Of a stretch of 36,266 bases of DNA, positions 631 to 36,266 are shown in pieces (the stretch's first letter is position 1; every line of letters begins with the position of its first letter). The notes beneath the pieces were generated by a model. That model was given only the letters and a program-made list of their open reading frames with translations. It did no database searches and was not told the origin of the DNA. The DNA is from Motilibacter deserti (GTDB lineage: Bacteria > Actinomycetota > Actinomycetes > Motilibacterales > Motilibacteraceae). The stretch lies in assembly GCF_011250635.1 (NCBI RefSeq), contig NZ_JAANNP010000011.1:40038-76303 (forward strand), read 5' to 3'. The position numbers and the translations under genes are program-made.

Positions 631-1407
631 TCAGCCGAAGCGGCCGGAGATGTAGTCCTCGGTCGCCTTCTCCGACGGGGTGGAGAACATCTTCGGCGTC
701 GGGGCCATCTCGATGAGCTTGCCGGGCTTGCCGGAGCCCGCGATGTTGAAGAACGCCGTCGTGTCGCTCACCCGGGCGGCCTGCTGCATGTTGTGGGTGA
801 CGATGACGATCGTGTACTGCTCCTTGAGCGCCGCGATCTGGTCCTCGATCGCGAGCGTCGAGATCGGGTCCAGGGCGGAGCAGGGCTCGTCCATGAGCAG
901 GACCTCGGGCTCGACCGCGATGGCGCGGGCGATGCAGAGGCGCTGCTGCTGGCCGCCGGACAGGCCCGCGCCGGGACGGTCGAGCCGGTCCTTGACCTCG
1001 TTCCAGAGGTTGGCGCCCTTGAGCGAGGTCTCGACGATGCCGTCGAGCTGGGACTTCTTCTTCACGCCGTTGAGCCGCAGGCCGGCCGCGACGTTGTCGT
1101 AGATCGACATGGTCGGGAACGGGTTGGGCCGCTGGAAGACCATCCCCACGGTCCGGCGGACGGCGACCGGGTCGACGTTCTGCCCGTAGAGGTCCTCGCC
1201 GTCGATGGTGACCTTGCCCTCGACGCGCGCTCCCGGGATCACCTCGTGCATCCGGTTCAGCGTGCGCAGGAAGGTCGACTTGCCGCACCCGGACGGGCCG
1301 ATGAAGGCCGTCACCGAGCGGGGCTCGATGGTCATGTTGACGTCCTCGACGGCCCGGAACGAGCCGTAGTAGACGTTCAAGCCGCTGACGTCGATGCGCT
1401 TGGCCAT
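631..1407 (-). CDS. pstB: Phosphate ABC transporter ATP-binding protein PstB (first copy)
   Basis: This is the cytoplasmic ATPase that powers phosphate import through the PstC/PstA channel. The 258-aa length is normal for PstB. It has Walker [10 protein letters not shown] at 37-45, the Q-loop in VFQRPNPFP near 90-98, the ABC signature LSGGQQQR at 149-156, Walker B VLLMDEP at 169-175 and the switch histidine in [11 protein letters not shown]. The PNPFP and [19 protein letters not shown] context is typical of PstB rather than other ABC ATPases. The ATG start has an AGGAG-like site just upstream, and the pstA stop is only 12 bases away, so it is the last gene of the pstSCAB operon. A second pstB lies at 33401-34228. 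Confidence 0.97.
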
Positions 1408-1419
1408 GGATCCAGTCTC

Positions 1420-3479: not shown

Positions 3480-3528
3480 TGCTTGCTCCTCCGGCGGGCG
3501 GACGGGGCGGTAGGGATGCTGTCACTCC

Positions 3529-3590
3529 GAAGCGCCGGGTGCTGACCCGGCCCCCTCATGATCGGGGGGGCCGGGAGCACTCGGCGCTTC
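3529..3590 (-). terminator. Large hairpin between pstS1 and pstC1
   Basis: Two stacked stems share one axis. The outer stem pairs 3529-3543 (GAAGCGCCGGGTGCT) with 3576-3590 with one G-T wobble. The inner stem pairs 3546-3555 (CCCGGCCCCC) with 3566-3575. A 2-nt bulge separates them and the loop is 10 nt. About 25 base pairs make it one of the strongest structures in the window. Its position, 20 bp after the pstS stop, fits a partial terminator or an mRNA 3'-end stabiliser that gives more binding protein than permease. Confidence 0.85.
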
Positions 3591-3610
3591 AGGGGGTGGT
3601 GCAGCGGGTG

Positions 3611-4774
3611 TCAGGCACCCGGGGTGATCGCGGCGACGGTCTCCGCGACCTGGGTGCGGACCTCCTCGGGGAGCGGCGCGTAGCCGTTGTCCGTGAGCAG
3701 GGCCTGGCCCTCGGTGCTCGAGGTGTAGGTCAGGAAGGACTTGACCAGGTTGGCGTCGGCGGCGGGCTGGCCGGCCGAGCACGCGATCTCGTAGGTCACG
3801 AGCACGATCGGGTACGCGTTGGCGGCCGTCGTGGCGTAGTTCAGCGAGAGCGCGAGGTCGGGGGCGGTGCCGGAGACCTCGGCGTCCGCGACGGCGGCGG
3901 CCGCGTTCTCCGGGGTCAGCTCGACGAAGCTCTGGCCGTCGTTGGAGACCTTGGCGGCGCTGAGGCCGGCGTCCTCGACGAAGGAGTACTCGACGTAGCC
4001 GATGGCGCCCGCGGTGCGGGAGACCGCGTCGGCCACACCCGCGGACTTGTTGGCGCCCTGGCCGCCCTTGATGGCGGCCGGCCACTGCTGCTCGGTGCCG
4101 TAGGTCCAGATGTCCTTGGCCGTGGCGTCGAGGTAGCGGGCGAAGTTCTGCGTGGTGCCGGACTCGTCCGAGCGGTGGACGGCGACGATGTCGGCGTCGG
4201 GCAGGTCGGCGTCGGGGTTCTCCGCCGTGATCTCGGCGGCGTTCCACTTGGTGATCTGGCCGGTGAAGATGCCGGCGATCGTCTTGGCCGACAGGTTGAG
4301 CTCGTCGACGCCCTCGATGTTGTAGGCGACGGCGATCGGGCCGACGACCATCGGGAGGTTGATCGCCTGGCCGCCGGTGCAGTTGGCGTCGGCCTGGGTC
4401 TTCTCCTCCTCCTTGATCGAGGAGTCCGAGCCGGCCCACGCGACCTGCTTGTCGATGAAGGCCTGGCGGCCGGCACCGGAGCCGGAGGCGTTGTAGTTGA
4501 TGGTGACGTCCGGGCAGGCCTCCTGGAAGGCCTTCGTCCACTCGGAGACCGCGTTCTGCTGCGCGCTGGACCCGGCGCCGTTGAGCGTGCCGCCGCCGGC
4601 GGGGCACGCGATGCCGCCGCTGCCCGCGTCGGGAGCGGTCGAGCTGCCGGCGGAGGCTGCGGGCGCGTCCGACCCGGTGGTCTCGTCGGAGTTGTCGTCG
4701 GAGCCGCAGGCCGCCAGCGCGAGGGAGCCGGCGAGGGCGACGACCGAGAGCCGGCCGAAGCGGTGGAGCTTCAC
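3611..4774 (-). CDS. pstS: Phosphate-binding lipoprotein PstS (first copy)
   Basis: This extracellular lipoprotein captures inorganic phosphate and delivers it to PstC/PstA. It is 387 aa. The signal peptide ends in a lipobox, LAAC, with C23 as the lipidated residue, followed by a Ser/Asp/Gly-rich linker to about residue 60. The PstS fold shows the phosphate-loop motifs: GAGSSAQQNA, SGSGAGRQAF, AGSDSS, and SDESGTTQNFARYL after FTGQITKWN. The GTG start is preceded by GGAGAGGGA. It heads the pstSCAB operon; the PHO box lies 83 bp upstream of the start, followed by a possible -10 TACCGT (4820-4825 on the minus strand). Confidence 0.96.
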   Translation of the reverse strand: MKLHRFGRLSVVALAGSLALAACGSDDNSDETTGSDAPAASAGSSTAPDAGSGGIACPAGGGTLNGAGSSAQQNAVSEWTKAFQEACPDVTINYNASGSGAGRQAFIDKQVAWAGSDSSIKEEEKTQADANCTGGQAINLPMVVGPIAVAYNIEGVDELNLSAKTIAGIFTGQITKWNAAEITAENPDADLPDADIVAVHRSDESGTTQNFARYLDATAKDIWTYGTEQQWPAAIKGGQGANKSAGVADAVSRTAGAIGYVEYSFVEDAGLSAAKVSNDGQSFVELTPENAAAAVADAEVSGTAPDLALSLNYATTAANAYPIVLVTYEIACSAGQPAADANLVKSFLTYTSSTEGQALLTDNGYAPLPEEVRTQVAETVAAITPGA

Positions 4775-21142: not shown

Positions 21143-21571
21143 ATGCCCGCCGCCCGGTTCGAGCTCTTCCTGCGCGGCTCCGACGGCGTCGAATGGCGGC
21201 TCATCGGGGCCAACCACCGCGAGCTGGCCCGCGGCGCCCGCGGCTACGCGGACGTCGAGGAGTGCGCGGCCGTCGTCAGCGGGGTGAAGCGGGTCGCCCG
21301 GGACGCCCGCGCCCAGCTCCAGCGCGACCCCGAGGGACGCTGGCGCTGGCAGCTGCTGGACGCGGGGGAGCCCGTCGCCCACGGCGGCCGGGGCTATCTG
21401 CGCCGGCTCGAGTGCGAGTCGGCGCTCGCCGCCTTCCGCACCAGCGCGCCGGACGCGCCGGCCGCTGCGGGCGTACGCGTCCTCCCCGGAGCGGTGCGGG
21501 TCCCGGGCGCCCGTCGGCCGTCGCACGACACCCTGCCCGGCGACGTCCGGGCCGCCCGCGCTCGCGGCTGA
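21143..21571 (+). CDS. Small protein with two YegP-like (DUF1508-like) repeats, copy A
   Basis: This 142-aa protein contains two repeats of a short beta-rich pattern: [20 protein letters not shown] followed by a GYADVEEC helix (about 5-50), and [20 protein letters not shown] followed by [15 protein letters not shown] (about 62-98). These resemble YegP/DUF1508 repeats, whose role is unknown. The tail (100-142) is Arg/Ala/Pro-rich. ATG 21143 has AAGGAAG six bases upstream. It is divergent from ppk and lies 276 bp before a paralogue. The repeat assignment is by pattern only. Confidence 0.7.
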
Positions 21572-21847: not shown

Positions 21848-22273
21848 ATGAGCGAATCGCGCTTCGTGCTGTCGGTCTCCCGGCGGCCGGACTCGGCCGA
21901 CGGGCCGGTGTCGTGGCGGCTGCTGTCGGCCAACAACCGGCTGCTCGCCAAGAGCCCGGCCGGGTTCGCGACCTTCGCCGAGTCCCGGGCCGCGGTGCTC
22001 GCGCTGTGCGCCGCGCTGCCGCGTACGACCGCGACCGCGATGACCGTGCCGACGACCGGCCGGTGGGTCTGGTCGCTGCGCGCGGACGGCGCGGTGGTCG
22101 CCGTGAGCGGCCGCTCGTACGAGCGGGAGCGCGAGTGCGTCGAGAGCCTGCGCCGGGCGCTCGCCGCAGCGGCCTCGGCGCCGCTCGCCCCCGCCGACCG
22201 TGACGTCGTGGTCGAGCTGCCCACGCAGCCGGCCCCGGCGCGTACCCCGCACGATCTGGAGACCACGCGATGA
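21848..22273 (+). CDS. Small protein with two YegP-like (DUF1508-like) repeats, copy B
   Basis: This 141-aa protein is a paralogue of the 21143 product. It has VSWRLLSANNRLLAKSPAGF followed by an Ala-rich helix (about 21-56), then GRWVWSLRADGAVVAVSGRS followed by YERERECVESLRRAL (about 70-105). ATG 21848 follows a GAGGGGG site. Its stop overlaps the pstC2 start as ATGA (22270-22273), so it is the first gene of the second pst operon. That coupling is the only clue to its job: a cytoplasmic accessory of the transporter or its regulation. The repeat match is by eye. Confidence 0.72.
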   Translation: MSESRFVLSVSRRPDSADGPVSWRLLSANNRLLAKSPAGFATFAESRAAVLALCAALPRTTATAMTVPTTGRWVWSLRADGAVVAVSGRSYERERECVESLRRALAAAASAPLAPADRDVVVELPTQPAPARTPHDLETTR

Positions 22274-23298
22274 CCGTCGTGGCCGTCGAGCCACCCCACG
22301 CCGAGGACGTGCCGCGCCGGCTCGCGGACCGTCCCACGCCCGCCGACCGCTTCTTCTTCCTGTTCACCCGCGCCGGCGGCCTCAGCGTGCTCGTCCTCAT
22401 GGGGCTGGTGGGGGCGTTCCTGACCTACCGCGCCGGCAAGGCGCTCGAGCAGGCGAACATCGCCTTCCTCACGACCGAGGCGTGGGAGCCGGACTCCGGC
22501 AACTTCGGCATCGCGGCCGTCCTCGTCGGCACCCTGCTGATCGCCGGCGTCGCCATCCTGATCGCCTTCCCGCTGGCGGCGGGCACCGCGCTCTACATCA
22601 GCGAGTACGCCCCCCGCCGGCTCAGGTCGACGCTCATCAGCCTCGTCGACCTGATGGCGGCGATCCCGAGCGTCGTCTACGGCCTGTGGGGGTTCTTCCT
22701 GCTCCAGCCGCACATGCTGGTCGTCGGCCAGGAGGGCAACGGGCTGGTCCGGTGGCTGGCGACGTACCTCGGGTGGATCCCGCTCTTCGCCGTGGACGGC
22801 GCGGACCCGGGCGACCCGCTGTCCACGGCGACGGTCTACACCTCCTCGACCTTCATCGCCGGCGTCGTCGTGGCCCTGATGATCGCCCCGGTCATGTGCT
22901 CGGTGATGCGCGAGGTCTTCTCGCAGGCGCCGGTCGGCGAGCGGGAGGGCGCGTACGCCCTGGGCACGACGCGGTGGGGGATGATCCGCGCGGTCGTGCT
23001 GCCGTTCGGCCGGGCCGGGATGATCGGCGGGACGATGCTCGGCCTCGGCCGTGCGCTGGGGGAGACGATCGCCGTCTACCTCATCATCTCGCCGATCTTC
23101 GTGATCCAGCCGCACATCCTGCAGAACGGCGCGAGCTCGATCTCCTCGCTCATCGCGCTGCGCTACGGCGAGGCCTCCGGGTTCGGCACCTCCGCGCTGA
23201 TGGCGGCGGGCCTCGCGCTCTTCCTCATCACGCTGCTCGTCAACGTGCTGGCCTCCGCCGTCGTGAACCGCAGCCGGTCCGGGGCGGTGACGGGATGA
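22270..23298 (+). CDS. pstC: Phosphate-type ABC permease PstC (second copy)
   Basis: This membrane channel subunit is 342 aa. It has an N-terminal membrane segment (about 35-58), an external loop that includes EPDSGNFGIAAV, then the permease core with DLMAAIPSVVYGLWGFF. The EAA loop is EREGAYALGTTRWGMIRAVV, followed by GLGRALGETIAVYLI. The loop between the third and fourth core helices contains about 40 extra polar residues (near 150-195). ATG 22270 overlaps the upstream stop by four bases, and its own stop overlaps pstA2 the same way. The family fits phosphate, but the true ligand depends on the unusual binding proteins downstream. Confidence 0.93.
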   Translation: MTVVAVEPPHAEDVPRRLADRPTPADRFFFLFTRAGGLSVLVLMGLVGAFLTYRAGKALEQANIAFLTTEAWEPDSGNFGIAAVLVGTLLIAGVAILIAFPLAAGTALYISEYAPRRLRSTLISLVDLMAAIPSVVYGLWGFFLLQPHMLVVGQEGNGLVRWLATYLGWIPLFAVDGADPGDPLSTATVYTSSTFIAGVVVALMIAPVMCSVMREVFSQAPVGEREGAYALGTTRWGMIRAVVLPFGRAGMIGGTMLGLGRALGETIAVYLIISPIFVIQPHILQNGASSISSLIALRYGEASGFGTSALMAAGLALFLITLLVNVLASAVVNRSRSGAVTG

Positions 23299-24518
23299 CG
23301 ACGTCGACCTTCAGCGGCACGGCCCCGGCGGCCGCAGCCCCGGCGGCCGTGGTCGAGCGGCCGGTGGAGACGAAGCGCTCGCTGCGCTCGGTGCGACGCA
23401 GCGATGTGCTCGCGCTGGTCGGTGCCGCGGTCGGTGCGGTCTCGTGCACGAGCCTGCTGTTCTTCCGGCTCGCGCCGTTCTCGGGGAAGCTCGGCTTCGT
23501 CGTCGTCGCCTACCTGCTCTTCCTCGGCTTCTACGCGCTGCTGGTGTCGCGGGACGAGGCCGGCCCCGTCGTACGCGACCGGCTCGCCGCAGCGGTCTCG
23601 CACAGCCTCGCGTTCGTGCTGCTGCTGGCGATGGTCGTCGTCATCGGCTACACGCTCTGGCGTGGCAAGGACGCCTGGTCGCACGCGAACTTCTTCACGG
23701 AGGACATGCGGCGCACCGGGCCGCTCGACCCCCTGGACGTCGGCGGCATCGCGCACGCCGCCGTCGGCACGCTCGAGCAGATCGCGCTCGCCCTCGTCGT
23801 CACGGTCCCGCTCGGCCTGACGTGCGCGGTCTTCCTGCTGGAGGCCCGGGGCCGGCTGGCCCGCCTCGTGCGCATGCTCACCGAGGCGATGACCGCGCTG
23901 CCGTCGATCGTGGCCGGCCTGTTCGTCTACGCGATGCTGATCGTGAGCCACGTCGTGGAGCGGTCGGGCCTCGCCGCGTCGATCGCCATCAGCGTGATGA
24001 TGCTGCCGATCGTCATCCGGGCGGCCGACGTCGTGCTCCGTCTGGTGCCGGGCAACCTCAAGGAGGCCTCGCTCGCCCTGGGGGCGAGCCGCTGGCGGAC
24101 GGTCTGGCACGTGGTGCTGCCGACCGCGCGGTCCGGCCTCACGACGGCGGTCATCCTCGGCACCGCCCGCGGCATCGGCGAGACCTCGCCTGTCCTGCTC
24201 ACGGCCGGCTACGCCACCGCGATGAACGCGAACCCGTTGCAGGACCCGATGACGTCGCTGCCGCTGGCGACGTTCCAGCTGGTGAAGTCCTCGCAGCCGG
24301 AGATGATCGCGCGCGGGTTCGGCGCCGCCGCCACGCTGCTCGCCATCGTCCTCGTCCTCTTCGTCGTCGCCCGCGTCATCGGCGGCAAGCCTCCGGGCCA
24401 GCTGTCCAAGCGCGCGCAGAAGCGTGCCGCCCGCGCCTCGGAGCGGGACGCCCGCCGCTTCACGATCGAGGCCGTGCACCAACTCGTCTCCGAAGACACC
24501 AACAGGAGAAGCGCATGA
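23295..24518 (+). CDS. pstA: Phosphate-type ABC permease PstA (second copy)
   Basis: This partner permease is 407 aa, about 50 longer than the first PstA. The N-terminus (1-35) is Ala/Pro-rich and polar; two or three membrane segments follow, then the core with TEAMTALPSIVAGLFVYA. The EAA loop is KEASLALGASRWRTVWHVVL, followed by GTARGIGETSPVLLTAG. A basic tail of about 40 residues (SKRAQKRAARASERDARR) extends into the cytoplasm and is not usual for PstA. Start and stop both form ATGA overlaps with neighbours. Confidence 0.93.
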   Translation: MTTSTFSGTAPAAAAPAAVVERPVETKRSLRSVRRSDVLALVGAAVGAVSCTSLLFFRLAPFSGKLGFVVVAYLLFLGFYALLVSRDEAGPVVRDRLAAAVSHSLAFVLLLAMVVVIGYTLWRGKDAWSHANFFTEDMRRTGPLDPLDVGGIAHAAVGTLEQIALALVVTVPLGLTCAVFLLEARGRLARLVRMLTEAMTALPSIVAGLFVYAMLIVSHVVERSGLAASIAISVMMLPIVIRAADVVLRLVPGNLKEASLALGASRWRTVWHVVLPTARSGLTTAVILGTARGIGETSPVLLTAGYATAMNANPLQDPMTSLPLATFQLVKSSQPEMIARGFGAAATLLAIVLVLFVVARVIGGKPPGQLSKRAQKRAARASERDARRFTIEAVHQLVSEDTNRRSA

Positions 24519-26470
24519 CCCGCCTTCGGCTTCGCCCGACGACTTCAGTCAAGGAAGTGAGCTTCCTGCGTCGGCTGAGCCGCGTCTGCGCGGCCGTCGC
24601 CGTCGTCCTCGTCGGGAGCCCCCTCGCGGCCGGCCCGGCTGCGGCCGAGTCCTACGTCCGCATCAGCGGCTCGGGCTCCTCGTGGAGCTTCAACGCGCTC
24701 AACGCCTGGATCGCCGGCGTCGACCAGCTGGGGATGCGGGTCGACTACGACCCGTCCGGCTCGTCGGTGGGCCGCGAGGCGTTCAAGAACGGCACGGCCG
24801 ACTACGGCGTCTCGGAGATCCCCTACGGCATCACGGATGCAGGGCAGCCGGACCCGCCGCCCACCCGCAAGTACGCCTACATGCCGATCGTCGCCGGCGG
24901 CTCCGCCTTCATGTACAACCTCAAGGTCGGGGCCACGCGCATCACGAACCTGCGGCTGTCCGGCGAGACGCTGACCAAGATCTTCACGGGCGCCATCACG
25001 CAGTGGAGCGACCCGGCCATCAAGGCGGACAACCCGGGGCTCACGCTGCCGCCGCGGCGCATCGTCCCGGTCGTCCGCTCGGACGGCTCGGGCAGCACCG
25101 CCCAGTTCACGACCTGGATGGCGAGCCAGTACCCGAGCCTGTGGAACGCCTACTGCGCCAGCGCAGGCCGGTCCACGCCGTGCGGGACCACGTCGATCTA
25201 CCCGGTCAAGGCAGGCTCCGGCTTCACCGCGCAGTCGGGCTCGCTAGGTGTCGCCGGCTACGTGAAGCAGGAGACCGCCGAGGGTGCCATCACGTACGTC
25301 GAGTACTCCTACGCGCTCGACACCAACTTCCCTGTGGTCAAGGTGCTCAACAAGGCCGGCTACTACGTCGAGCCGACCGCGGACAACGTCGCGGTGGCGC
25401 TCACGGAGGCCCGGATCAACCAGGACGAGAGCTCTCCGCTCTACCTCACCCAGCAGCTCGAGGGCGTCTACGGCAACGCCGACCCCCGCAGCTATCCGCT
25501 GTCGAGCTACAGCTACATGATCCTGCCGCTGCAGACGGACAAGACGTTCACGAAGGAGAAGGGGCACACCCTCGCCGACTTCGCCTTCTACTTCCTCTGC
25601 GACGGCCAGCAGACGATGCCGAGGCTCGGGTTCTCCCCGCTGCCCCGCAACCTCGTGCAGGCCGGCTTCGAGCAGGTGACCCGCATACCCAACCTCGACG
25701 ACGCGCAGCCGCCGGACATCTCCCGCTGCAACAACCCGACCTTCTCCAGCAGTGGCGAGAACCTGCTGGCCCAGAACGCGCCGATGCCGGCCGACTGCGA
25801 CAAGCAGGGGCCGCTGCAGTGCGGCGAGGGGACGGGCGGTGCCGAGGAGGCCACGCCGGTCGCGCCGGAGGCCTCCGGTGGCGAAGGGGCACCGGCCGGC
25901 GACGGCGGCACGGCAGCCGGCGGCGAGGCCTCGGCCGGAGGAGCGGCCGCGGGCGGGCCCGCGACCGGCGGGGCCGTAGGGGCCGGCGGCACGGGCGTTC
26001 CCGTGGCCGGCGGCACCGGCGCCACGGGTGGCGCGCCCGGCTCGACGGGGGCAGGTGGCTCGTCCACCTCGGGTGGCACCGGGGCGGGCGCCGCACCGGT
26101 CGTGGTCGACCCCGACACCGGTGAGGTCATCAGCGGCGGCGGGACAGCCGGTGCCGCTGGGGTGGGCGCCTCCGCGGCCGGCGGCACTGCCGCTGGCGGC
26201 GCGCTCGCCGGTGCGGCCGGGACCGGCGGCACGACGACAGCGGGCGGGACGGCGACGACCGTCGGCGCTGCGGGCGCTGCCGGAGGAGGCGCAGTGGGCG
26301 GCGGGGTGACTCAGCTCGCGGGCGCGATCCCGGTGTCGGCCGCCGCAGCCGGCGGGTGGGGCCAGCGCGAGTCGCTGATGGCCCTGAGCGCACTGCTGTT
26401 GTTCGCGACCGTCCTGTTGCCGCCGCTGGCCGCGCAGCTGCTGGCCCGCCGCAAGGCAGGAAGCCGATGA
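24515..26470 (+). CDS. PstS-like binding protein with Gly/Ala stalk and C-terminal membrane anchor
   Basis: This 651-aa protein should bind phosphate or a related oxyanion at the cell surface. A Sec signal ends near PAAA-ES (44-45), with no lipobox. The PstS domain (about 46-430) shows ISGSGSSWSFNALNAW, DPSGSSVGREAF, KIFTGAITQWSDP and RSDGSGSTAQFTTWM. Residues 437-610 form a Gly/Ala/Thr low-complexity stalk. A membrane segment (about 621-643) and the basic end RRKAGSR anchor it. PstS proteins are normally lipoproteins or free periplasmic proteins of 300-400 aa, so stalk plus anchor is the odd feature. It overlaps pstA2 by ATGA, with AGGAGAAG upstream. Confidence 0.88.
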   Translation: MTRLRLRPTTSVKEVSFLRRLSRVCAAVAVVLVGSPLAAGPAAAESYVRISGSGSSWSFNALNAWIAGVDQLGMRVDYDPSGSSVGREAFKNGTADYGVSEIPYGITDAGQPDPPPTRKYAYMPIVAGGSAFMYNLKVGATRITNLRLSGETLTKIFTGAITQWSDPAIKADNPGLTLPPRRIVPVVRSDGSGSTAQFTTWMASQYPSLWNAYCASAGRSTPCGTTSIYPVKAGSGFTAQSGSLGVAGYVKQETAEGAITYVEYSYALDTNFPVVKVLNKAGYYVEPTADNVAVALTEARINQDESSPLYLTQQLEGVYGNADPRSYPLSSYSYMILPLQTDKTFTKEKGHTLADFAFYFLCDGQQTMPRLGFSPLPRNLVQAGFEQVTRIPNLDDAQPPDISRCNNPTFSSSGENLLAQNAPMPADCDKQGPLQCGEGTGGAEEATPVAPEASGGEGAPAGDGGTAAGGEASAGGAAAGGPATGGAVGAGGTGVPVAGGTGATGGAPGSTGAGGSSTSGGTGAGAAPVVVDPDTGEVISGGGTAGAAGVGASAAGGTAAGGALAGAAGTGGTTTAGGTATTVGAAGAAGGGAVGGGVTQLAGAIPVSAAAAGGWGQRESLMALSALLLFATVLLPPLAAQLLARRKAGSR

Positions 26471-29115
26471 GGCGAATCTCCCTTCGCCTGTCTCGCCTCC
26501 GGCGGGGAGCCGCCCTGGCCGGCGCCGTGCTGCTGGCACTCGGCAGCGTCACGTCCTGGCCCGCGACCGCCGACGAGTCCGCGCCCTCCTCGAGCCTGAC
26601 GAAGAGCGGCACCGGCGAGTTCGCCGGCCTCGAGGTCACCGTGAGCCAGACGGCGGACCTGGTCAACCAGGTCATCACGGTCTCCTGGACCGGCGGGCGT
26701 CGGACCTTCCCGTCGGACGGGAGCTTCGGCGCGAACTACCTGCAGATCATGCAGTGCTGGGGCGACGACGAGGCGGCCGGCCCGAGCCGGGACCAGTGCC
26801 AGTTCGGCGGCCTCGCCACGAACGGCGACACCCGCGGCGGCGCGTTCGTCACGACGCGTCAGCTGACGTACGGCAGCCTCGTCGACCCGGCGGAGACCGA
26901 GCAGCCGGAGGACGGCGAGCAGGTCGCGTACGCACCCTTCCGGTCGGTGACCGGTGTGGTCGAGCGCGGGCCGCGCAGCCAGTTCTTCAGCGCGAGCACC
27001 ACCAACGAGCTGCCCTTCGGCCGTACGCTCGGCGACGGCACCGGCCTGGAGTACTTCGAGGCCCAGACCGCGCTCGAGGCGCCCGGCCTCGGCTGCGGCG
27101 CGCCCCGCGCCGACGCGTCCGCCGACGGCTCCGTCGCGCCGTGCTGGCTCGTCGTGGTGCCGCGGTCCGATCGCGACGTCGACGGCTCGCGCATCGTGCT
27201 CTCCGGGGACAAGCTCCAGTCCTCCCCGTTGAGCGCGAGCAACTGGGCCCACCGCATCGTCTTCCCGCTGCGCTTCAACTCCCTCGCCACTGCGTGCGAG
27301 CTGTCCGGTGCCCACCCGCTGTCCGGGCAGGAGGCGCCCGTCGAGGCCGTGGTGCGGTGGCAGAACGAGACGTGCAAGGACGACGGCCCGAGCTTCTCCT
27401 ACACCCCGCTGACGGACATCGAGGCCCGGCGGCAGCTCGTCGGGAGCAACCCCGACCTGGTCTTCATCTCACGACCCCCGGAGAAGTCAGCGGTCCCTGC
27501 TGCCCACCCGGTGGTCTACGCGCCGACGACGCTCTCGGGCATCGTCATCGCCTTCAACATCGACCGGCAGTCGGACTCGTCGGCCCCCGCCTCGGTCAAG
27601 GAGCAGGACGGGCAGAAGGTGCCGGAGCTGCGGCTGACGCCCCGGCTGGTGGCGAAGCTGCTGACGCAGTCCTACCGGCTGGCGGTGCACCCGACCGCGA
27701 CCTACCTCGCGGGGAACCCGTACGACCTGACCCGCGACCAGGACTTCCTCTCGCACAACCCGATGTTCCGTGAACTGTCCTTCCCCTTCCCCGGGATCCC
27801 GGAGCTCCTGCTGCCCTTCAAGTCCTCCGACGCGACGCGGCAGGTCTGGGAGTGGATCGCGGCCGACGCCGAGGCGCAGGCTTTCCTCGCCGGGCAGCCC
27901 GACCCCTGGGGGATGCGGGTCAACCCGCGCTACGCCGGCATGTCCCTCCCGCTGGACGACTTCCCCAAGCGGGACGACTACTGCCGGACGAACCTGCCGC
28001 CGGACGGCCACGAGGAGTGCACCATCGCGATGCACCCCTACGCCAACAACTTCCTGGCGACCGCTCAGTCGGCGAGCAAGGGCGACACGCTCACGAAGTT
28101 CTACGACCCGAACGCCCTGCCCAAGGCGACCTACAAGAGCTCCCCCGCCCAGCCGAGCGGCGCGCGTGCCGTGCTCGCCGTCACCGACGCGGCGCGCGCG
28201 GCGAGGTACGGGCTCTTCACCGCCAAGCTGCGCAACGTCGCAGGGGAGTTCGTCGCGCCCGACGCCGCAGGCCTGCTCGCAGGCGTGGAGGCGATGAGCC
28301 CGGCCGAGGCAGCGCCCAGCGTGCTCGCGCCCGACTACAGGTCCACGGACGCCGCGGCGTACCCGCTCACCAACGTGACCTACGCCGCCACCGCGCCGTC
28401 CCGGCTGCGCAAGGCCGAGGGGCGGGCCTACGGTCAGCTCCTGCGCTACGCCGTCAGCGGCAAGGCGCAGGTGCAGGGCGTCAAGGAGGGGCAGCTGCCC
28501 TACGGCTACGCCCCGCTGCCCGCGGACCTGCGCGAGCAGGCGCTCGACGCGGCCGACCGCATCGCGGCGGGGGCGGGCGTACCGGTCGCCGTGCCGAGCC
28601 CGACCCCGACGCCCCGCGCGACGACGACGCCCACGCCGCGGCCGACAGCGGCGACAACGCCTCGCCCCACGGTGTCGTCCAGCGCACGCCCGACGGCAGC
28701 TTCGGCGATCTCCGCTTCGGTCTCGCCCTCCCCGACGCCGGCCGCACAGAGCCCTGCGCCCACGCCGTCGCCGTCGGCGTCGCCCTCGGCCGCCGCCACG
28801 CCCGCAGCGAGCGGAAGCCCGTCTCCCACGGAGCGGCCGTCGTCGAGCGCGGCGGACGGCGGTGGGACGGGCGCGGCGCCATCGGTCCCGACGTCGTCGT
28901 CGCCGTCGGCCAGCGCGACGGCGAGCCCGTCGGCGACCCCCACGGCGCCGAGCGCCCCGCCGGTGCAGGTCGTCGACGTGCAGCCGGTCGCCCTCACCCC
29001 CGCCGACCCGGTCGGCGCCGTGCGGTTCGTGGTCCTGGGCGTCGTCGCGCTCGGCCTGCTGGCCGGCGTCGCCGTCCCGATCCTCTACTTCCTCCCGCGC
29101 CGGGACCGTCCGTGA
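26467..29115 (+). CDS. Large surface protein with PstS-like domain, Pro/Ser/Thr stalk and membrane anchor
   Basis: This 882-aa protein has a signal peptide (about 1-35). Residues 45-330 have no family I recognise but include TADLVNQVITVSWTGG, YLQIMQCWGD and several Cys. A PstS-like half follows: APTTLSGIVIAFNID, LRLTPRLVAKLLTQSY, then the PstS-type end YPLTNVTYAA...AEGRAYGQLLRYAVSG and LPYGYAPLPADL. Residues 709-835 are a Pro/Ser/Thr stalk; a membrane segment (about 853-876) and RRDRP close the protein. It overlaps the previous gene by ATGA. It looks like a second, enlarged binding protein anchored beside the first. Confidence 0.8.
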   Translation: MRRISLRLSRLRRGAALAGAVLLALGSVTSWPATADESAPSSSLTKSGTGEFAGLEVTVSQTADLVNQVITVSWTGGRRTFPSDGSFGANYLQIMQCWGDDEAAGPSRDQCQFGGLATNGDTRGGAFVTTRQLTYGSLVDPAETEQPEDGEQVAYAPFRSVTGVVERGPRSQFFSASTTNELPFGRTLGDGTGLEYFEAQTALEAPGLGCGAPRADASADGSVAPCWLVVVPRSDRDVDGSRIVLSGDKLQSSPLSASNWAHRIVFPLRFNSLATACELSGAHPLSGQEAPVEAVVRWQNETCKDDGPSFSYTPLTDIEARRQLVGSNPDLVFISRPPEKSAVPAAHPVVYAPTTLSGIVIAFNIDRQSDSSAPASVKEQDGQKVPELRLTPRLVAKLLTQSYRLAVHPTATYLAGNPYDLTRDQDFLSHNPMFRELSFPFPGIPELLLPFKSSDATRQVWEWIAADAEAQAFLAGQPDPWGMRVNPRYAGMSLPLDDFPKRDDYCRTNLPPDGHEECTIAMHPYANNFLATAQSASKGDTLTKFYDPNALPKATYKSSPAQPSGARAVLAVTDAARAARYGLFTAKLRNVAGEFVAPDAAGLLAGVEAMSPAEAAPSVLAPDYRSTDAAAYPLTNVTYAATAPSRLRKAEGRAYGQLLRYAVSGKAQVQGVKEGQLPYGYAPLPADLREQALDAADRIAAGAGVPVAVPSPTPTPRATTTPTPRPTAATTPRPTVSSSARPTAASAISASVSPSPTPAAQSPAPTPSPSASPSAAATPAASGSPSPTERPSSSAADGGGTGAAPSVPTSSSPSASATASPSATPTAPSAPPVQVVDVQPVALTPADPVGAVRFVVLGVVALGLLAGVAVPILYFLPRRDRP

Positions 29116-29198: not shown

Positions 29199-30158
29199 GT
29201 GAACCGCAAGCGCGTTCTGGCCTTCGCGGCCGGGATCTGCATGATCGCCGGACTGGGGACCGCAGGGTCGGCGCTGGCCGACCCGCCGCAGGGCGAGTAC
29301 CGCCAGCTCGCCGGCGTCGGCTCCGACACCACCCAGGACGTCATGAACGCGATGGCCGACGCCATCGTCGTCAACGGCCAGAAGCCCATCGCGTCCTACG
29401 ACGCGTTCGGGTCGGCCACGGTCCAGACGAAGGCCAACCCCGCCTGCACCATCTCGCGCCCGGCCGGCTCCGGCGCCGGCCGCACGGCGCTCGTCACCCA
29501 GCTGCAGGCGGGCAACGGCTGCCTCGACTTCGCCCGCTCCTCCAGCCTCAGCCTGGGCGCGACCACCCCGGGCCTGACGTACGTCCCCTTCGCCGTCGAC
29601 GCCGTCAGCTTCGCCGTCAGCAGCGACAGCCTCCTGCCGCGCCGGCTCACGCTGCAGCAGGTCAAGGACATCTACAACTGCAAGAACGACGCCCAGGGCT
29701 GGAAGCCGCTGCTGCCGCAGGCCGGCTCCGGCACGCGCAGCTTCTGGCTGTCCACCCTGGGGATGACCGAGGCGCAGGTCACCGCCAGCCCCTGCATCGT
29801 CCAGACCGTCGCCGGTGCCCCGATCCAGGAGCACGACGGGCGCGTCCTCGACAGCTCGAGCATCGTCCCGATCTCGGTCGCGCAGTGGGTCGCGCAGACC
29901 GAGGGCACCGTCGCGGACGTGCGCGGCAAGGCCGTCCTCGGCGTCATCGACGGCAACCTGCCGATCGTCCTCAACTCCGACTTCGGCGTGAAGCGCGACG
30001 TCTACAACGTCGTGCCGACCTCGAAGCTCGGCGAGAGCCCGTACAAGGAGATCTTCATCGGCAAGCAGTCCGAGATCTGCAAGAACACGGGGATCATCAC
30101 GCAGTACGGCTTCGCTCCGCACACGGACTGCGGCAGCGACACGCGCCGCACGTCCTGA
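29199..30158 (+). CDS. Secreted PstS-like substrate-binding protein
   Basis: This 319-aa protein has a signal peptide cleaved near A27 (GSALA-DPP). GVGSDTTQDVMNAMADA (38-54), SRPAGSGAGRTAL and GNGCLDFARSSS mark a PstS-type periplasmic-binding fold. LTLQQVKDIYNCK and AGSGTRSFWLSTLG correspond to the hinge and second anion-binding loop. It has no lipobox and no C-terminal anchor, so it should be released or loosely held. GTG 29199 is preceded by GAAGGGA; an in-frame GTG at 29169 is less likely. This is the third binding-protein-like gene of the operon. Confidence 0.82.
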   Translation: MNRKRVLAFAAGICMIAGLGTAGSALADPPQGEYRQLAGVGSDTTQDVMNAMADAIVVNGQKPIASYDAFGSATVQTKANPACTISRPAGSGAGRTALVTQLQAGNGCLDFARSSSLSLGATTPGLTYVPFAVDAVSFAVSSDSLLPRRLTLQQVKDIYNCKNDAQGWKPLLPQAGSGTRSFWLSTLGMTEAQVTASPCIVQTVAGAPIQEHDGRVLDSSSIVPISVAQWVAQTEGTVADVRGKAVLGVIDGNLPIVLNSDFGVKRDVYNVVPTSKLGESPYKEIFIGKQSEICKNTGIITQYGFAPHTDCGSDTRRTS

Positions 30159-30187: not shown

Positions 30188-30952
30188 ATGCGAGCCGTGA
30201 AGCCAGTCTGGGGCGCTGCCGCGCTGCTGACGGTGGCGTGCGTCGCGGCTCCTCCGGCCGCTGCGGACGAGGTGGAGCGCCGCCCGCTGCTGGTGGTGCC
30301 GGAGTCGGGCCGTGACGTCTCGCCGATGTCGCTGCAGACCACGGGCAGCTGCACGCTCCCCGCGACCAACGTCGTCGGGCTCGTGCGCGGCCCGGGCTTC
30401 CCCGAGGCGGGGCAGGTCGTCGTCGGCAACACCGACGTCGGCGTCTCCTCGTCGGCGGCGTTCTCGCTGCCGCTGGGGGACACCCTGCGGTCCTACGCAG
30501 CCCAGCAGCAGCCGCCCGCGCCGCTGAAGGGGACGTACGAGCTGGTGCTGAGCTGCCGCGAGCCACTGGGGCCGTCGCTGCTCGAGTACCGCGCCGAGCT
30601 CGTCCTCCCCGGGGACGGCACCTACACCTTGAAGCCGGTCGGGGCCGGCCGGCCCGCGGGGAGCGCGCCGGGCCCCTCGGCGGCCACCCCTGGTGCCTCG
30701 GCCCCGGTCGCCGCTCCTGGTGCGCCGACCCCATCGGCCGCGCCCGGGACCGCTGCGCCGGGCGCGGGTGCGCCTTCTGCGGCGGGCCCGCCCCCCGGCC
30801 CGTCCGCGGCTGCCGTCGCGACGCCGCAGGTGCAGACCGTGGCGTCCTCGCACCGCACGTCGCGGCTCGGGCTCTCGGCCCTGCTGCTCGTCCTCGCTCT
30901 TGCCTTCCTGATTGCCCTGTGGCGGCCGTTCGCCGGCAAGCGCCACAGCTGA
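30188..30952 (+). CDS. Membrane-anchored protein with a two-cysteine domain of unknown type
   Basis: This 254-aa protein has a signal peptide to about A26. Residues 55-123 form a domain bounded by C55 and C123, shared with the next gene product at identical cysteine spacing. An Ala/Pro/Gly stalk (about 145-220), a membrane helix (about 228-245) and RPFAGKRHS follow. A perfect GGAGGTGA site precedes ATG 30188. I recognise no family. The cysteines probably form a disulfide outside the cell. Its place between a binding protein and an Ig-like protein suggests a surface accessory. Confidence 0.78.
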   Translation: MRAVKPVWGAAALLTVACVAAPPAAADEVERRPLLVVPESGRDVSPMSLQTTGSCTLPATNVVGLVRGPGFPEAGQVVVGNTDVGVSSSAAFSLPLGDTLRSYAAQQQPPAPLKGTYELVLSCREPLGPSLLEYRAELVLPGDGTYTLKPVGAGRPAGSAPGPSAATPGASAPVAAPGAPTPSAAPGTAAPGAGAPSAAGPPPGPSAAAVATPQVQTVASSHRTSRLGLSALLLVLALAFLIALWRPFAGKRHS

Positions 30953-30990: not shown

Positions 30991-32409
30991 GTGACGTCCA
31001 CGCGATGGAGGCGGCGGTACGCCGCCGCCCTCACGACCGCGGCGCTGGCCGCCGGGACGGGGCTGGCGCTCGCCGGCTCGGCCGGCGCCGCGCCTGCCGT
31101 CGGGTCCCTCACCTTCCTCAACACCGCCGGCGGGACGGGCACGTTCGCCGACAACGCCCCGGTCAACGTCAAGACCTCCGCGGCCTGCCCGCCCGGCAGC
31201 ACGAACGTCGTCGGGATCCTGCGCGGTGCGGGCCTGCCGGCCGCGGGCGCCGTCGTCGTGGCCAACACGGCCGCCGGCGTCTCGACCTCCGGCGCCTTCA
31301 CTATGCCGCTGCGCGCCTCGCTGCGCGACATCGCGGCCGAGCAGACCCCCGCCGCGAGGCTGCAGGGCCGCTACGACATGACGCTGCGCTGCCAGGACTT
31401 CTCCGGCGCGCAGAACCTCGGTGAGTTCACCGGGACGGTCTGGTTCACCTCGGCCACGAGCTACCAGACGACCCAGCCGATCGTCACGACGACGCTCGCG
31501 CTGTCGGCTGCTCCGGCCGGGCCGGTCACGGCGGGCGCGCGGGTCACCCTCACCGCCGTCGTGGCGCCCGTCGAGGCCACGGGGTCGGTGCAGTTCTTCG
31601 ACAACGGGGCGGCGCTCGGGAAGGCCGATGTCGCCGGCGGCCGCGCGCAGCTGACGACGGCCACGCTCGGCGCCGGGACGCACAGCTTCACCGCGGCCTT
31701 CTCCGGCGACGTGGCCGAATACCTGAACTCCACCTCGGCCGCGGTCGGAGTGCGGGTCGACGCCCCGGCCCCGGCTCCGACGCAGCCCGCGCCGGCTCCG
31801 ACGCAGCCCGCTCCGGCCCCGACGCAGCCGGCACCGGCCGCCACGCAGCCGGCGCCCGGCTCGGGCACGCCCGCCCAGCCGCTGCCGAAGCCGACGGTGA
31901 GCCGGGCCACGCTGGCCGGCAAGCCGTACGTCGCCTCGAAGGTGACGTGCAACGTGACGGTCAGCGGCGCGGCCAGCGTGAGCTACGCCTGGCTGCGCGA
32001 CGGCAAGCCCGTCAGCGGCACCGCGAAGACCCGCGCCCTCACCAAGACGGACCTGAAGCACACCTTCGCCTGCCGCGTGACCGCCACGAACGCGTCCGGC
32101 ACGACGGTCGTGACCAGCGCCGCGGTGCGCGTCGGCCCTGCCGCGCTCAAGGCAGCCAAGGCCCCGTCCGTCGCGGGCAAGGCCGTCGTCGGCGGCAAGC
32201 TCACCGCGAAGGCCGGCACCTGGTCGCCGAAGGCGACGTCGGTCAAGTACCAGTGGCTCCGCGACGGCAAGGCGATCTCGGGCGCCAAGGCCGCGACGTA
32301 CACGCTGAAGAAGGCCGACAAGGGCCACACCGTGTCGGTCCAGGTGACGGCCGCCCGCAAGGGCTCCTCGCCGGGTGTCGCGGTGTCGCGGGGCCTGAAG
32401 GTCAAGTAG
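30991..32409 (+). CDS. Secreted multidomain protein: two-cysteine domain plus Ig-like domains
   Basis: This 472-aa protein has a signal peptide (about 1-34). The two-cysteine domain (C66-C134) matches the previous gene product. An Ig-like domain of the Big_3/Ig_5 kind (about 163-255; TGSVQFFDNGAALG and GTHSFTAAFSGD) follows. Next come a Pro/Ala/Thr/Gln linker of four APTQPAP repeats and two further beta-sandwich repeats (about 287-375 and 378-472), each with YxWLRDGKxxSG. There is no C-terminal anchor or LPXTG motif. GTG 30991 has CGGGAG upstream. It may bind neighbouring surface proteins or cell wall. Confidence 0.82.
   Translation: MTSTRWRRRYAAALTTAALAAGTGLALAGSAGAAPAVGSLTFLNTAGGTGTFADNAPVNVKTSAACPPGSTNVVGILRGAGLPAAGAVVVANTAAGVSTSGAFTMPLRASLRDIAAEQTPAARLQGRYDMTLRCQDFSGAQNLGEFTGTVWFTSATSYQTTQPIVTTTLALSAAPAGPVTAGARVTLTAVVAPVEATGSVQFFDNGAALGKADVAGGRAQLTTATLGAGTHSFTAAFSGDVAEYLNSTSAAVGVRVDAPAPAPTQPAPAPTQPAPAPTQPAPAATQPAPGSGTPAQPLPKPTVSRATLAGKPYVASKVTCNVTVSGAASVSYAWLRDGKPVSGTAKTRALTKTDLKHTFACRVTATNASGTTVVTSAAVRVGPAALKAAKAPSVAGKAVVGGKLTAKAGTWSPKATSVKYQWLRDGKAISGAKAATYTLKKADKGHTVSVQVTAARKGSSPGVAVSRGLKVK
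31774..31857 (+). repeat. 21-bp tandem repeat, four units, in a coding linker
   Basis: Four 21-bp units (31774, 31795, 31816, 31837) encode APTQPAP-type heptapeptides between Ig-like domains. Units 1 and 2 are almost identical and 3 and 4 have diverged. Copy number could vary between strains. Confidence 0.8.
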
Positions 32410-33368
32410 TGAGCTCGACCCTCGAGGTGCAGGAGGCCCGGACGGCGACGCCGTCCGGGTCCTCCGGCCGACCCTCCCGCCCCGCGCGCCAACGCATTCC
32501 GCTCCCGCGCCGGCGCTCCCTGCCGCCCGTCTCGCGTGCGCTCGCCGGAGGGCTCGGCGCCCTCGCGGCCATGCTCCTCGGCTTCGGCCTGCAGCTCGGC
32601 GTGGTCGGTGCGGTCCAGCACGACCGCGACCAGGAGGTGGCGTACGACGACTTCCGCGGCGCGCTCGCACTGGCCCTCGCGCCGGTGGGGCAGGCCGACT
32701 ACGAGGGCAAGCTGCTGCAGCCCGGCGCCGCGGTCGCGATCCTGGAGATCCCCAGGCTCGGGCTGCGCGAGGTCGTGGGCGAAGGCACCACCTCGGAGGT
32801 GCTGCAGTCCGGCCCGGGGCACCGTCGCGACACGGTGCTCCCCGGCCAGGCGGGCACCAGCGTCGTCTTCGGCCGGCGCGCGGGCTACGGCGGCCCCTTC
32901 AGCGGCATCGCGGGGCTGCGGATCGGCGACGCGATCAGGACGACCACCGGTCAGGGCGAGGCGACCTTCCGCGTCCTCGGCGTCCGCCGCGCCGGCGACC
33001 CGGTCCTGGCGCCGCTCGCGCCCGGCGCCGGACGGCTCACGCTGGTGACCGCTGACGGCGACGCGTTCTTCCCGCAGGGGGCGCTGCGCGTCGATGCCGA
33101 GCTGACGAGCGCCGCGTTCCCCGCGCCGGCGAAGGTGGTCACCGCCGCCGACCTCGGCGCGTCCGAGCAGCCGCTCGCCGGTGACAGCAAGGCTTGGGTC
33201 CCGCTCGTGCTCTGGGGCGAGGGGCTCCTGCTGGCCGCCGTCGGCTTCGTCTGGGCCCGTGCCCGCTGGGGGCGGTGGCAGGCCTGGATCGCGGGCGGCC
33301 CGGCCCTGGTCGCACTGGCCCTTCCGGTCGCGGACTGCACGTCCCGACTTCTGCCGAACCTGCTGTGA
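32409..33368 (+). CDS. Membrane protein with a sortase-like domain lacking catalytic residues
   Basis: This 319-aa protein has a basic N-terminus, a membrane segment (about 43-68) and a sortase-fold domain (about 100-235), then two C-terminal membrane segments (about 263-283 and 291-306). The fold is shown by [34 protein letters not shown] and YGGPF. The catalytic His of the usual GHR motif is Arg (G155-R156-R157). The catalytic Cys of the usual TLxTC motif is Ala (TLVTA, A215). The Arg expected at the last strand also appears displaced (ALRVDAEL). No transpeptidase activity is expected. GTG 32409 shares a base with the previous stop (TAGTG). A binding or assembly role is inferred. Confidence 0.83.
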
Positions 33369-33400
33369 CGAATCCTCCTTCTTTAGAAAGCAGTCTCGAC

Positions 33401-34228
33401 GTGACCGTCACCGAGTCGCCCGTGCCGATGCAGCGTACGAGCCCGTCGACCTCCCTCGCCGCGCTCGAGGGTCGTGCCGTGTCGGCGTGGTTCGGCTCGC
33501 ACAAGGTGCTGGACCGCGTGTCGCTGACGATGCCGGCCGGTGCGGTCACCGCGCTCATCGGCCCGTCGGGGTGCGGCAAGTCGACGTTCCTGCGCATCCT
33601 CAACCGGATGCACGAGCTCGTGCCCTCCGCGGCACTCGCGGGAGAGGTCCTGCTCGACGGCGAGGACATCTACGCCCCCTCGCGCCGGCTCATCGACGCC
33701 CGGCGGGAGATCGGCATGGTCTTCCAGAAGCCGAACCCGTTCCCGGCGATGAGCATCTACGACAACGTGGTGGCCGGCCTCAAGCTCACGGGCAAGCGCG
33801 TGTCGCGCTCGGAGAAGGACGGGCTCGTCGAGTCCTGCCTGAGCCGGGCGGGCCTGTGGAAGGAGGTCAAGGACCGCCTCCGCCAGCCGGGCGGCGGCCT
33901 CTCCGGCGGCCAGCAGCAGCGGCTCTGCATCGCGCGCTCGCTCGCCGTCATGCCGCGCGTGCTGCTCATGGACGAGCCGTGCTCGGCGCTCGACCCGACG
34001 AGCACGCGCCGCATCGAGGAGACGATCGGTGAGCTCAAGTCCGAGGTCACCATCGTCATCGTGACGCACAACATGCAGCAGGCTGCGCGCGTCTCGGACT
34101 TCTGCGCGTTCTTCCTGGCCGAGCAGGGCACGCCCGGCCACATCGTCGAGGCGGGGCCGACGACGGCGATCTTCGAGACGCCGCAGGACGCGCGGACGTC
34201 GGACTACGTGCACGGGCGCTTCGGCTGA
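33401..34228 (+). CDS. pstB: Phosphate-type ABC ATP-binding protein PstB (second copy)
   Basis: This ATPase is 275 aa from GTG 33401. It has Walker [10 protein letters not shown] (54-62), VFQKPNPFP, signature LSGGQQQR (167-174), Walker B VLLMDEP (187-193) and [13 protein letters not shown], all PstB-like. The frame is open to GTG 33365, which would overlap the previous stop, but that stretch uses AAT, CCT, TCT and a TTA codon, alien to this genome, so I prefer 33401 despite its weak GAAAG site. It closes the second pst operon. The two PstB proteins differ clearly in the Walker A to signature region, so this is not a recent duplicate. Confidence 0.94.
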
Positions 34229-34642: not shown

Positions 34643-36266
34643 ATGCAGCACCGCCGCGTGCTCGCCGTCGCCGTCGCGGCGGCGGCCGCCACGAGCGCAC
34701 TGCCCGCCACCGCGTACGCCAAGACCTCCGCTCCGCGGGCGACAGCCGCGGCCGTGAGCGGGTTCGACCTGCAGGCCCACCGCGGCGGCCTCGGCCTCCG
34801 CCCCGAGAGCACGCTGTCGTCCTTCGGCAACGCCCTCCGGCTCGGCGTCTCGACGCTCGAGCTCGACATCCAGATCACCGAGGACGGCAAGGCCGTCGTC
34901 ACCCACGACCGCCGGGTCAGCGCGACGCCGTGCCGAGACACCGCACCGGCCTTTCCCGGCGACCCGGAGTTCCCGTACGTCGGCAAGTACGTCAAGAACC
35001 TCACGCTCGCGCAGGTCAAGACGCTCGACTGCGGCCAGCGCAACACGAGCCCGGCCACGGACCCGGTGACCGCCACGCAGGAGAAGGTGCCGGGCTCGCG
35101 CATGCCCGAGCTGCGCGACGTGCTGAGCCTGGTCAAGCGCTACGGCGCCAAGGACGTGAAGCTCAACGTCGAGACCAAGGTCGAGGCCGGCGCCCCGAAC
35201 GAGACGGCACCGCGCGAGCAGTTCGTGCAGGTCGCGGTGCAGGAGATCCGCAACTCCGGAATCCTGGACCAGGTCACGATCCAGAGCTTCGACTGGGGCA
35301 CGCTGAAGCGGATCGGCGAGGTCGAGCCGCGCCTGCCGCTCGTCGCGCTGACGAACTACGACTTCCTCCAGACCGGCCAGCCCGGGGCGTCCCCCTGGCT
35401 CGGCGGCATCGACATCGACGACTTCGGTGGCGACCCGATCGCCGCGATCAAGTCCTTCGGCGCCACGGCGTTCTCGCCCGTGCACGGGTTCCCGCAGAAC
35501 GGCAAGGTGACCGATGCGGGCTACCGGCCGTACGTCACCAAGGCCATGGTCGACGCGGCCCACGCGGCGGGCATCAAGGTCGTCCCGTGGACCGTCGACG
35601 ACCAGCCGACGATGCGCAAGCTGATCGACGACGGCGTGGACGGCATCATCACCGACTACCCGGACCGGCTGCGCCAGGTCATGGCCGAGCGCGGTCTGGC
35701 CCTGCCGAAGCAGTACGCATCGCCGTTCGACGTGCAGGCCCACCGCGGCGGCCGCGCCCGCCTGCCGGAGAACACGCTCGCGGCCTTCGCGAACGCGCTC
35801 TCCGACGACGACATCTCGACGCTCGAGTTCGACACCGGCATCACGCAGGACCGGGTGCCGGTCGTCCTGCACGACCGGACGGTCAACGGCTCGCACTGCG
35901 TCGACACGGCGCCCGTGACCTCCGGTGACCCAGAGTTCCCGTACGTCGGCAGGGCCGTCCACGATCTCACTCTCGCCCAGCTCAAGACGCTCGACTGCGG
36001 CAGCAAGACGCTGTCGGCGGAGCTGCCGCAGCAGCAGGCCGTGCCCGGCGCGCGGATCCCGACGCTCGAGGAGGTCCTCGACCTCGTCAACGAGAGCGGC
36101 CGCGACGACATCCGGCTCAACATCGAGACGAAGCTGAGCCCGACGGCTGACGACACGATCCGCTACAAGACCTTCACCCACGAGGTCGTCCGGGAGATCA
36201 AGCGCGCCAAGCTGATCGACCGAACCACGTTGCAGTCGTTCGACTGGCGGACGATCCAGTACTCCC
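34643..36266 (+). CDS. Secreted tandem glycerophosphodiester phosphodiesterase, cut by the window end
   Basis: The frame is open from ATG 34643 to the last base, giving 541 residues with no stop, so the 3' end lies outside. A Sec signal (about 1-26, ending ATAYA) precedes two GDPD domains. Domain 1 begins AHRGGLGLRPEST (H46) and has LELDIQIT, THDRR, NVETK, QSFDWGTL and GVDGIITDYP. Domain 2 begins AHRGGRARLPENT (H367) and repeats LEFDTGIT, LHDRT, NIETK and QSFDWRTI. Both keep the catalytic His pair and metal Glu. GAAGGGA precedes the start. It differs from the single-domain GlpQ at 11588. Confidence 0.9.
   Translation, partial: MQHRRVLAVAVAAAAATSALPATAYAKTSAPRATAAAVSGFDLQAHRGGLGLRPESTLSSFGNALRLGVSTLELDIQITEDGKAVVTHDRRVSATPCRDTAPAFPGDPEFPYVGKYVKNLTLAQVKTLDCGQRNTSPATDPVTATQEKVPGSRMPELRDVLSLVKRYGAKDVKLNVETKVEAGAPNETAPREQFVQVAVQEIRNSGILDQVTIQSFDWGTLKRIGEVEPRLPLVALTNYDFLQTGQPGASPWLGGIDIDDFGGDPIAAIKSFGATAFSPVHGFPQNGKVTDAGYRPYVTKAMVDAAHAAGIKVVPWTVDDQPTMRKLIDDGVDGIITDYPDRLRQVMAERGLALPKQYASPFDVQAHRGGRARLPENTLAAFANALSDDDISTLEFDTGITQDRVPVVLHDRTVNGSHCVDTAPVTSGDPEFPYVGRAVHDLTLAQLKTLDCGSKTLSAELPQQQAVPGARIPTLEEVLDLVNESGRDDIRLNIETKLSPTADDTIRYKTFTHEVVREIKRAKLIDRTTLQSFDWRTIQYS

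Follow-up and report, generated by a model that had tools for sequence, protein, structure and literature searches.

Sortases are known as wall-anchoring enzymes, and a widespread triad-less family could be annotated 'sortase' and thereby mislead counts of both sortases and their substrates. The class E enzymes, represented by Streptomyces avermitilis SrtE (5go5/5go6) and S. coelicolor SrtE1 (5cuw), have in common with the protein described here (the pseudo-sortase PSRT) the sortase barrel. In SrtE1, Tyr229, the residue that follows the conserved GH, is proposed to read the Ala at position P3 of the sorting signal and an Arg is said to bond the backbone of the signal (PMC5148588). Unlike these enzymes, PSRT lacks the catalytic His, Cys and Arg, has the P3-reading Tyr replaced in most of its core lineage, carries an extra C-terminal membrane hairpin and has a set position within a Pst-type operon. 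A second class of actinobacteria has intact sortases (e.g., L142, L249 and L253) with the same hairpin as PSRT; these differ from it in that His, Cys and Arg are kept and no Pst genes lie nearby. Another dead homologue kept in an operon is SipA (LepA), a signal-peptidase homologue of streptococcal pilus operons that is needed by the operon it serves (PMC7900414); PSRT resembles it in this respect, but fold and operon are unrelated and PSRT is not a member of the SipA family. Five sortase candidates of classes E and F (792, 273, 184, 240 and 247 aa) are listed for Actinoplanes missouriensis (PMC13251363), and they do not look like the PSRT family. The titles and abstract openings returned by our search of open-licence papers contained no description of a natural dead sortase family, and the search gave none of a phosphate-type importer with anchored receptors and surface proteins. 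If our reading is true, PSRT would to our knowledge be the first known sortase pseudoenzyme family.

The window analysed here, a 36,266-nucleotide stretch of a Motilibacter deserti contig, carries nine co-directed genes in the order PstC, PstA, SBP1, SBP2, SBP3, IgS, IgL, PSRT and PstB, with gaps of fewer than 90 bases or negative gaps between them (Table 1). PSRT is the eighth gene; its start shares one base with the upstream stop and its own stop overlaps the GTG start of PstB at position 33365. The likeness to PstSCAB importers lies in the PstB-like ATPase, the two permeases and the PstS-like receptors. BPD_transp_1 is the sole match of each permease (45.4 and 60.2 bits against a cut-off of 26.4), giving the operon the pair of permeases expected of such a transporter, and the ATPase matches the PstB equivalog TIGR00972 with 336.4 bits (E 8.7e-101), just below the cut-off of 343.2. 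Beyond the PstSCAB set, operons of this kind encode two PstS-fold receptors tethered to the membrane, another PBP-like protein as the third, surface proteins of Ig-like or WxL type, and the pseudo-sortase. A separate four-gene set resembling an ordinary pst operon was seen by eye on the opposite strand (631-4774). Two DUF1508 (YegP-like) genes stand ahead of the nine-gene operon (21143-21571 and 21848-22273), and DUF1508 homologues adjoin PstB in three distant relatives (L042, L047 and L048). The gene that follows PstB (34643-36265) appears by eye to encode two glycerophosphodiester phosphodiesterase modules in one secreted protein.

Table 1. Coordinates of the operon genes and of the sites within them, in positions of the window.
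Feature	Coordinates	Strand	Basis or remark
PstC-like permease	22270..23298	+	named by position and partners; Pfam BPD_transp_1
PstA-like permease	23295..24518	+	named by position and partners; Pfam BPD_transp_1
SBP1, PstS-like receptor, long linker, C-terminal membrane helix	24557..26470	+	sequence matches
DPDTG peptide in SBP1 linker, lineage-specific sorting-signal-like motif	26108..26122	+	computed; 120 residues from C-terminus
SBP2, N-terminal beta region, PstS-fold domain, low-complexity linker, C-terminal membrane helix	26467..29115	+	predicted structure
SBP3, secreted PBP-like protein	29199..30158	+	PF12849, 29.5 bits, cut-off 27
IgS, small secreted protein, C-terminal membrane helix, basic tail, no sorting motif	30188..30952	+	
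IgL, secreted protein with bacterial Ig-like domain (Big_3_5)	30991..32409	+	Pfam
PSRT, pseudo-sortase	32409..33368	+	319 aa, GTG start; profile match, alignment, AlphaFold2 model
Codon of R156, place of catalytic His	32874..32876	+	alignment column: R 98, K 3 of 101
Codon of A215, place of catalytic Cys	33051..33053	+	alignment column: A 85, S 8, G 8, T 2 of 103
Codon of A225, place of catalytic Arg	33081..33083	+	alignment column: Arg 0/103
C-terminal two-helix membrane hairpin, residues 260-314	33186..33350	+	AlphaFold2 model
PstB-like ATPase	33365..34228	+	TIGR00972

Profile and structural comparisons agree on the fold of PSRT. The Pfam Sortase model PF04203 gives 50.3 bits (gathering score 26.6), which places the protein in the sortase superfamily, and its best NCBIfam model is class_E_sortase NF033747 at 60.7 bits, far under the cut-off of 160; class E is the top NCBIfam match, or tied by count with class D, in 60/60 members scanned. 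The AlphaFold2 model, built from 60 sequences, has a mean pLDDT of 92.6 and a pTM of 0.85 and predicts an N-terminal membrane helix (residues 40-87), an extracytoplasmic sortase barrel (~105-237) and two C-terminal membrane helices (260-287 and 289-314), the protein ending in LLPNLL. When this model was submitted to a structural aligner, every one of the 50 rows shown was a sortase. They include 4d70, at Z 18.4 and rmsd 2.9 over 153 aligned residues, and the class E enzyme 5go6, at Z 17.5 and rmsd 2.2 over 125 (36% identity). The sortase fold asserted in the initial annotation is thus borne out by structure prediction. The same annotation considered the two C-terminal helices unusual; they are indeed present, but they are not peculiar to dead copies, since intact relatives share the hairpin.

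PSRT does not have the His-Cys-Arg triad of a sortase enzyme. The absence of His and Cys had been noticed at the outset and the alignment confirmed R156 and A215 in their places; the replacement of the catalytic Arg by A225 is an additional loss that had gone unmentioned. An alignment of homologues showed the first two replacements to be widely shared (Table 1). Among 103 family sequences, obtained from 98 related genomes, one scan of GTDB contigs and the window (two of them partial, and two loci, L006/L120 and L035/L074, counted twice), His was found in 0/101 readable sequences (two more do not cover the site), Cys in 0/103 and the catalytic Arg in 0/103, the last column reading V 61, A 17, L 13, I 7, T 4 and E 1. 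By comparison, 12/12 ordinary sortases encoded in these or related genomes have H, C and R, including one from the genome that contains the window. The contig scan relied on a peptide pattern at residues 137-146 and the best 80 of 247 relatives were taken; it is unable to count intact relatives because the pattern would miss ordinary sortases and only those 80 were kept. A search with the C-terminal 68 residues alone, a segment with no catalytic residue inside, matched 34 places in 27/196 genomes of the class, and the 33 that were read (29 plus four earlier rows; G512:C3 was unread) are all without His and Cys. Named carriers of PSRT include Streptomyces, Micromonospora, Actinoplanes, Microbacterium and Cellulomonas. 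In 13 hand-picked close pairs dN/dS ranged from 0.08 to 0.40 (Nei-Gojobori, own script), and the sequences support the view that the lineage has been kept under purifying selection. Four genomes hold two pseudo-sortase loci each: G061 (L032, L034), G017 (L045, L047), G048 (L041, L050) and G056 (L043, L049).

In a phylum-wide search of 396 genomes, 20 matched at E 1e-18 or lower, and among these L142, L144, L146 and L147 have the same C-terminal hairpin and an intact triad; L145 is intact without the hairpin. We followed this up in 148 genomes of the class to which one hairpin-bearing intact copy belongs, 116 of which matched at E 1e-15 or lower, and read 50 proteins with a sortase domain at 50 loci from 38 genomes, together with up to ~9 kb of flanking sequence on either side. 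Before counting we excluded eight spurious ORFs (on the reverse strand or fragmentary), low-GC loci were accessible via tblastn only, and the 50-locus sample is non-random because it was taken from hit lists, mostly for long matches. Thirty-one of the 50 copies have H, C and R intact, with no PstA, PstB or PstC within their stretches; 29 of these end in the hairpin, one has a divergent end (L266) and one has no hairpin (L187). All 16 copies that stand beside Pst genes are without His and Cys. The remaining three lack Cys and were seen without PstA, PstB or PstC: L276 comes from a contig of only 5.2 kb, L283 is flanked by SBP2-like and SBP3-like genes, and L269 (4981-7110) is a hairpin-bearing copy away from Pst genes in which His is kept, Cys has become Ser and Arg has become Gln. 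Both kinds coexist in ten of the 38 genomes, the intact copy lying away from Pst genes and the dead one next to them. The association of intact or dead state with the Pst neighborhood has a Fisher p of 2e-10, with kinship ignored and loci taken from hit lists. Among the copies read, no intact His-Cys copy was found in the same Pst operon, and the window's copy is accordingly not one decayed gene, every copy read beside Pst genes being without both residues. The intact hairpin sortases L178, L180, L252, L253 and L260 adjoin, by eye, genes of a ccm-like (cytochrome c maturation) cluster, which suggests a link between hairpin-bearing intact sortases and ccm.

For the history of the loss we built a tree with the three catalytic columns omitted, which set 53 non-intact rows (42 without Arg, ten with Arg, and L269) beside 30 intact hairpin-bearing and 12 class E sequences. 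All 53 fall together in a single clade (bootstrap 99, SH-aLRT 94; recovered in 99% of 200 bootstrap trees), and the intact hairpin sortases are its nearest outside relatives. In a quick tree the branches from the base upward are L269 (H, S, Q at the His, Cys and Arg places), L283 (R, G, R), several members with R, S, R and then the core without Arg. From this branching order, the deep part of which is modestly supported, Cys and His were apparently lost first and Arg later; Cys loss may even have begun outside the operon, since L269, read without Pst genes in its stretch, is sister of the rest in the quick tree. L269 is a possible early step of triad loss. Together these data give a natural series from enzyme to pseudoenzyme tied to entry into one operon, and the sequences support a history in which a paralogue entered a Pst operon, lost its triad, and persists as one clade under selection.

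The old active site has been remodelled beyond the triad. Residues that are fixed in the 42 core rows yet rare in intact rows are R156 (93%), R193 (93%), D229 (90%) and R140 (86%), together with G217 (90%), P222 (90%) and N317 (93%), and the Cys place is Ser in 9/10 of the Arg-keeping rows. The P3-reading Tyr belongs to the beta3/beta4 loop, following GPGH, and its position holds Y or F in 30/30 intact hairpin rows and 12/12 class E rows; it is R139 in the window's PSRT, which thus lacks this class E feature, and in the 42 core rows it is R in 67%, L in 12% and Q in 10%. The backbone-binding Arg is missing from the core as well. Because both the P3 Tyr and this Arg are lost in most of the core, binding of an ordinary LAXTG signal in the usual way is unlikely. 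The hairpin and an invariant P316 are common to PSRT and its intact relatives and so are no mark of a new role.

The initial annotation placed an inactive sortase inside an ABC transporter operon, and across relatives that transporter proves to be of Pst type: PstB follows PSRT in 79 of 80 named loci, the exception being L074, which has no PstB match. The other partners across the 80 loci are SBP3 (65), SBP2 (60), SBP1 (56), PstA (45) and PstC (24), falling counts that fit the 10 kb flank and contig ends. At low-GC loci the gene caller, which is based on GC content, yielded hardly any genes or none, and counts that depend on it are for that reason lower bounds. In several deep members PSRT directly adjoins SBP2 with PstCAB in opposite orientation; as a direct neighbor even where PstCAB is divergent, SBP2 is the steadiest partner of PSRT.

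Taking the conservation and the gene context together, we propose, with about an even chance of being right, that PSRT is a conserved sortase pseudoenzyme that serves as a dedicated non-catalytic membrane part of a Pst-type importer with surface-tethered receptors. The sequences support the history: a class-E-like sortase with the C-terminal hairpin has a paralogue that joined a Pst-type operon, and this lineage lost Cys and His and later, for the most part, Arg while being retained under purifying selection. The initial annotation suggested a peptide-binding or scaffold role; an ordinary LAXTG peptide is not the likely ligand, and the scaffold role is one that we infer from gene context. Three helices would hold the barrel against the membrane's outer face, where it would act as a non-covalent docking and assembly platform that keeps SBP1 and SBP2 close to the PstC/PstA permease, perhaps along with surface proteins encoded in the operon, and the newly fixed R156, R193, D229 and R140 would form the interface. 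The more specific version, in which the sortase fold was converted once into a non-catalytic importer subunit that holds several tethered PstS receptors at the permease, and in which intermediates of that conversion survive (Cys replaced by Ser and His by Arg at first, with the catalytic Arg disappearing afterwards), we put a little lower, at somewhat under an even chance.

Several other explanations were weighed against this one. Simple decay of one copy in the window's genome would account for the absence of all three catalytic residues, but the loss is common across many families of the phylum and accompanied by purifying selection; because the triad loss is shared and dN/dS is low in the pairs given above, we reject decay as having next to no chance of being correct. 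An unlikely, though the least unlikely, alternative is that PSRT binds the sorting signals of its neighbors uncut and passes them to, or withholds them from, the cell's active class E sortase, much as has been proposed for SipA and pilins. The window's genome does have a separate intact sortase (L002), SipA shows that a sortase pathway can include a dead enzyme (PMC7900414), and the gene directly upstream of PSRT ends in an LxxTG-type signal in 22 of the 51 loci that have a called upstream gene. That survey looked at 81 loci and no upstream gene was called in 24 of them, so that its counts are lower bounds. The claim that no LPXTG-type substrate is encoded nearby consequently stands for the window, where a pattern-plus-hydropathy scan found no credible LPXTG/LAXTG-type signal, and fails for these 22 relatives. 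Against the adaptor, 29 of the 51 upstream genes, the window's included, have no signal, the P3 Tyr and backbone Arg are gone from most of the core, and an LxxTG gene is present only in a minority of loci when PstB follows in nearly all. With only 22 of 51 called upstream genes carrying it, an LxxTG substrate as an obligatory partner of PSRT was rejected.

Somewhat less probable again is that the old groove, with Arg at the His place, holds an acidic [DE][PA]xTG peptide of the SBP1 linker and so tethers SBP1. The motif occurs in the linker at 34 of 57 loci, the window included (VVVDPDTGEVI), against a shuffle mean of 2.5 and maximum of 9, and it is found in 0/13 loci where the pseudo-sortase has E211 versus 34/44 others (p 5e-7, kinship uncorrected). 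In a further 25 loci, however, even a broader pattern found it in only seven, and in 0/8 deep Arg-keeping loci, and DPDTG may serve otherwise, for example in metal binding. Docking on DPxTG was accordingly rejected as a general mechanism, being strong in the first set and weak in the second, and it is the weakness of the second set that leaves it as a rival only; the motif looks like a feature of a lineage rather than a function of the pseudo-sortase family. We consider it improbable that the remodelled site, through the Ser of deep members or the newly fixed Arg and Asp residues, catalyses another reaction. Such an enzyme would fit with the change of Cys to Ser in nearly all Arg-keeping rows and with how strongly R156, R193 and D229 have become fixed in the core, but most core rows have Ala, Gly, Val or Thr where the nucleophile stood, and casual inspection noticed no conserved replacement nucleophile.

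The receptors that the proposed platform would hold are themselves PstS-like. SBP1 matches PstS chains (E 8e-33 to 8ods), and, of the positions that we take to be its phosphate contacts, S38, R135, D137, S139 and G140 are kept in 45/45 readable sequences (57 in total), and two are changed, F11W in 45/45 and D56E in 44/45. Phosphate or a similar oxyanion is the probable cargo, phosphate itself not being assured given the two fixed changes D56E and F11W. No Pfam model matches SBP2; its start at the ATG at 26467 was taken from the ORF, and the structure model, made from 26527 on, has a pLDDT of 83.5 and a predicted PstS fold at ~260-687 (against PstS3, Z 29.8, rmsd 2.7, 309 aligned). In SBP2 (26467-29115) six cysteines are invariant, and a beta-rich N-terminal region precedes the PstS-fold domain. 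By eye, the C-termini of both SBP1 and SBP2 consist of a membrane helix and a basic tail at most of the listed loci, with a few frames wrong (e.g., L063 and L066 in the SBP2 list). WxL-type surface proteins are best known from Firmicutes. WxL-type or WxL-interacting-type surface proteins lie inside the operons of relatives L057 (6009-8597) and L082 (5614-8449); the L057 operon matches WxL with 26.6 bits (cut-off 25) and WxL-interacting with 27.2 bits, just under the cut-off of 27.3.
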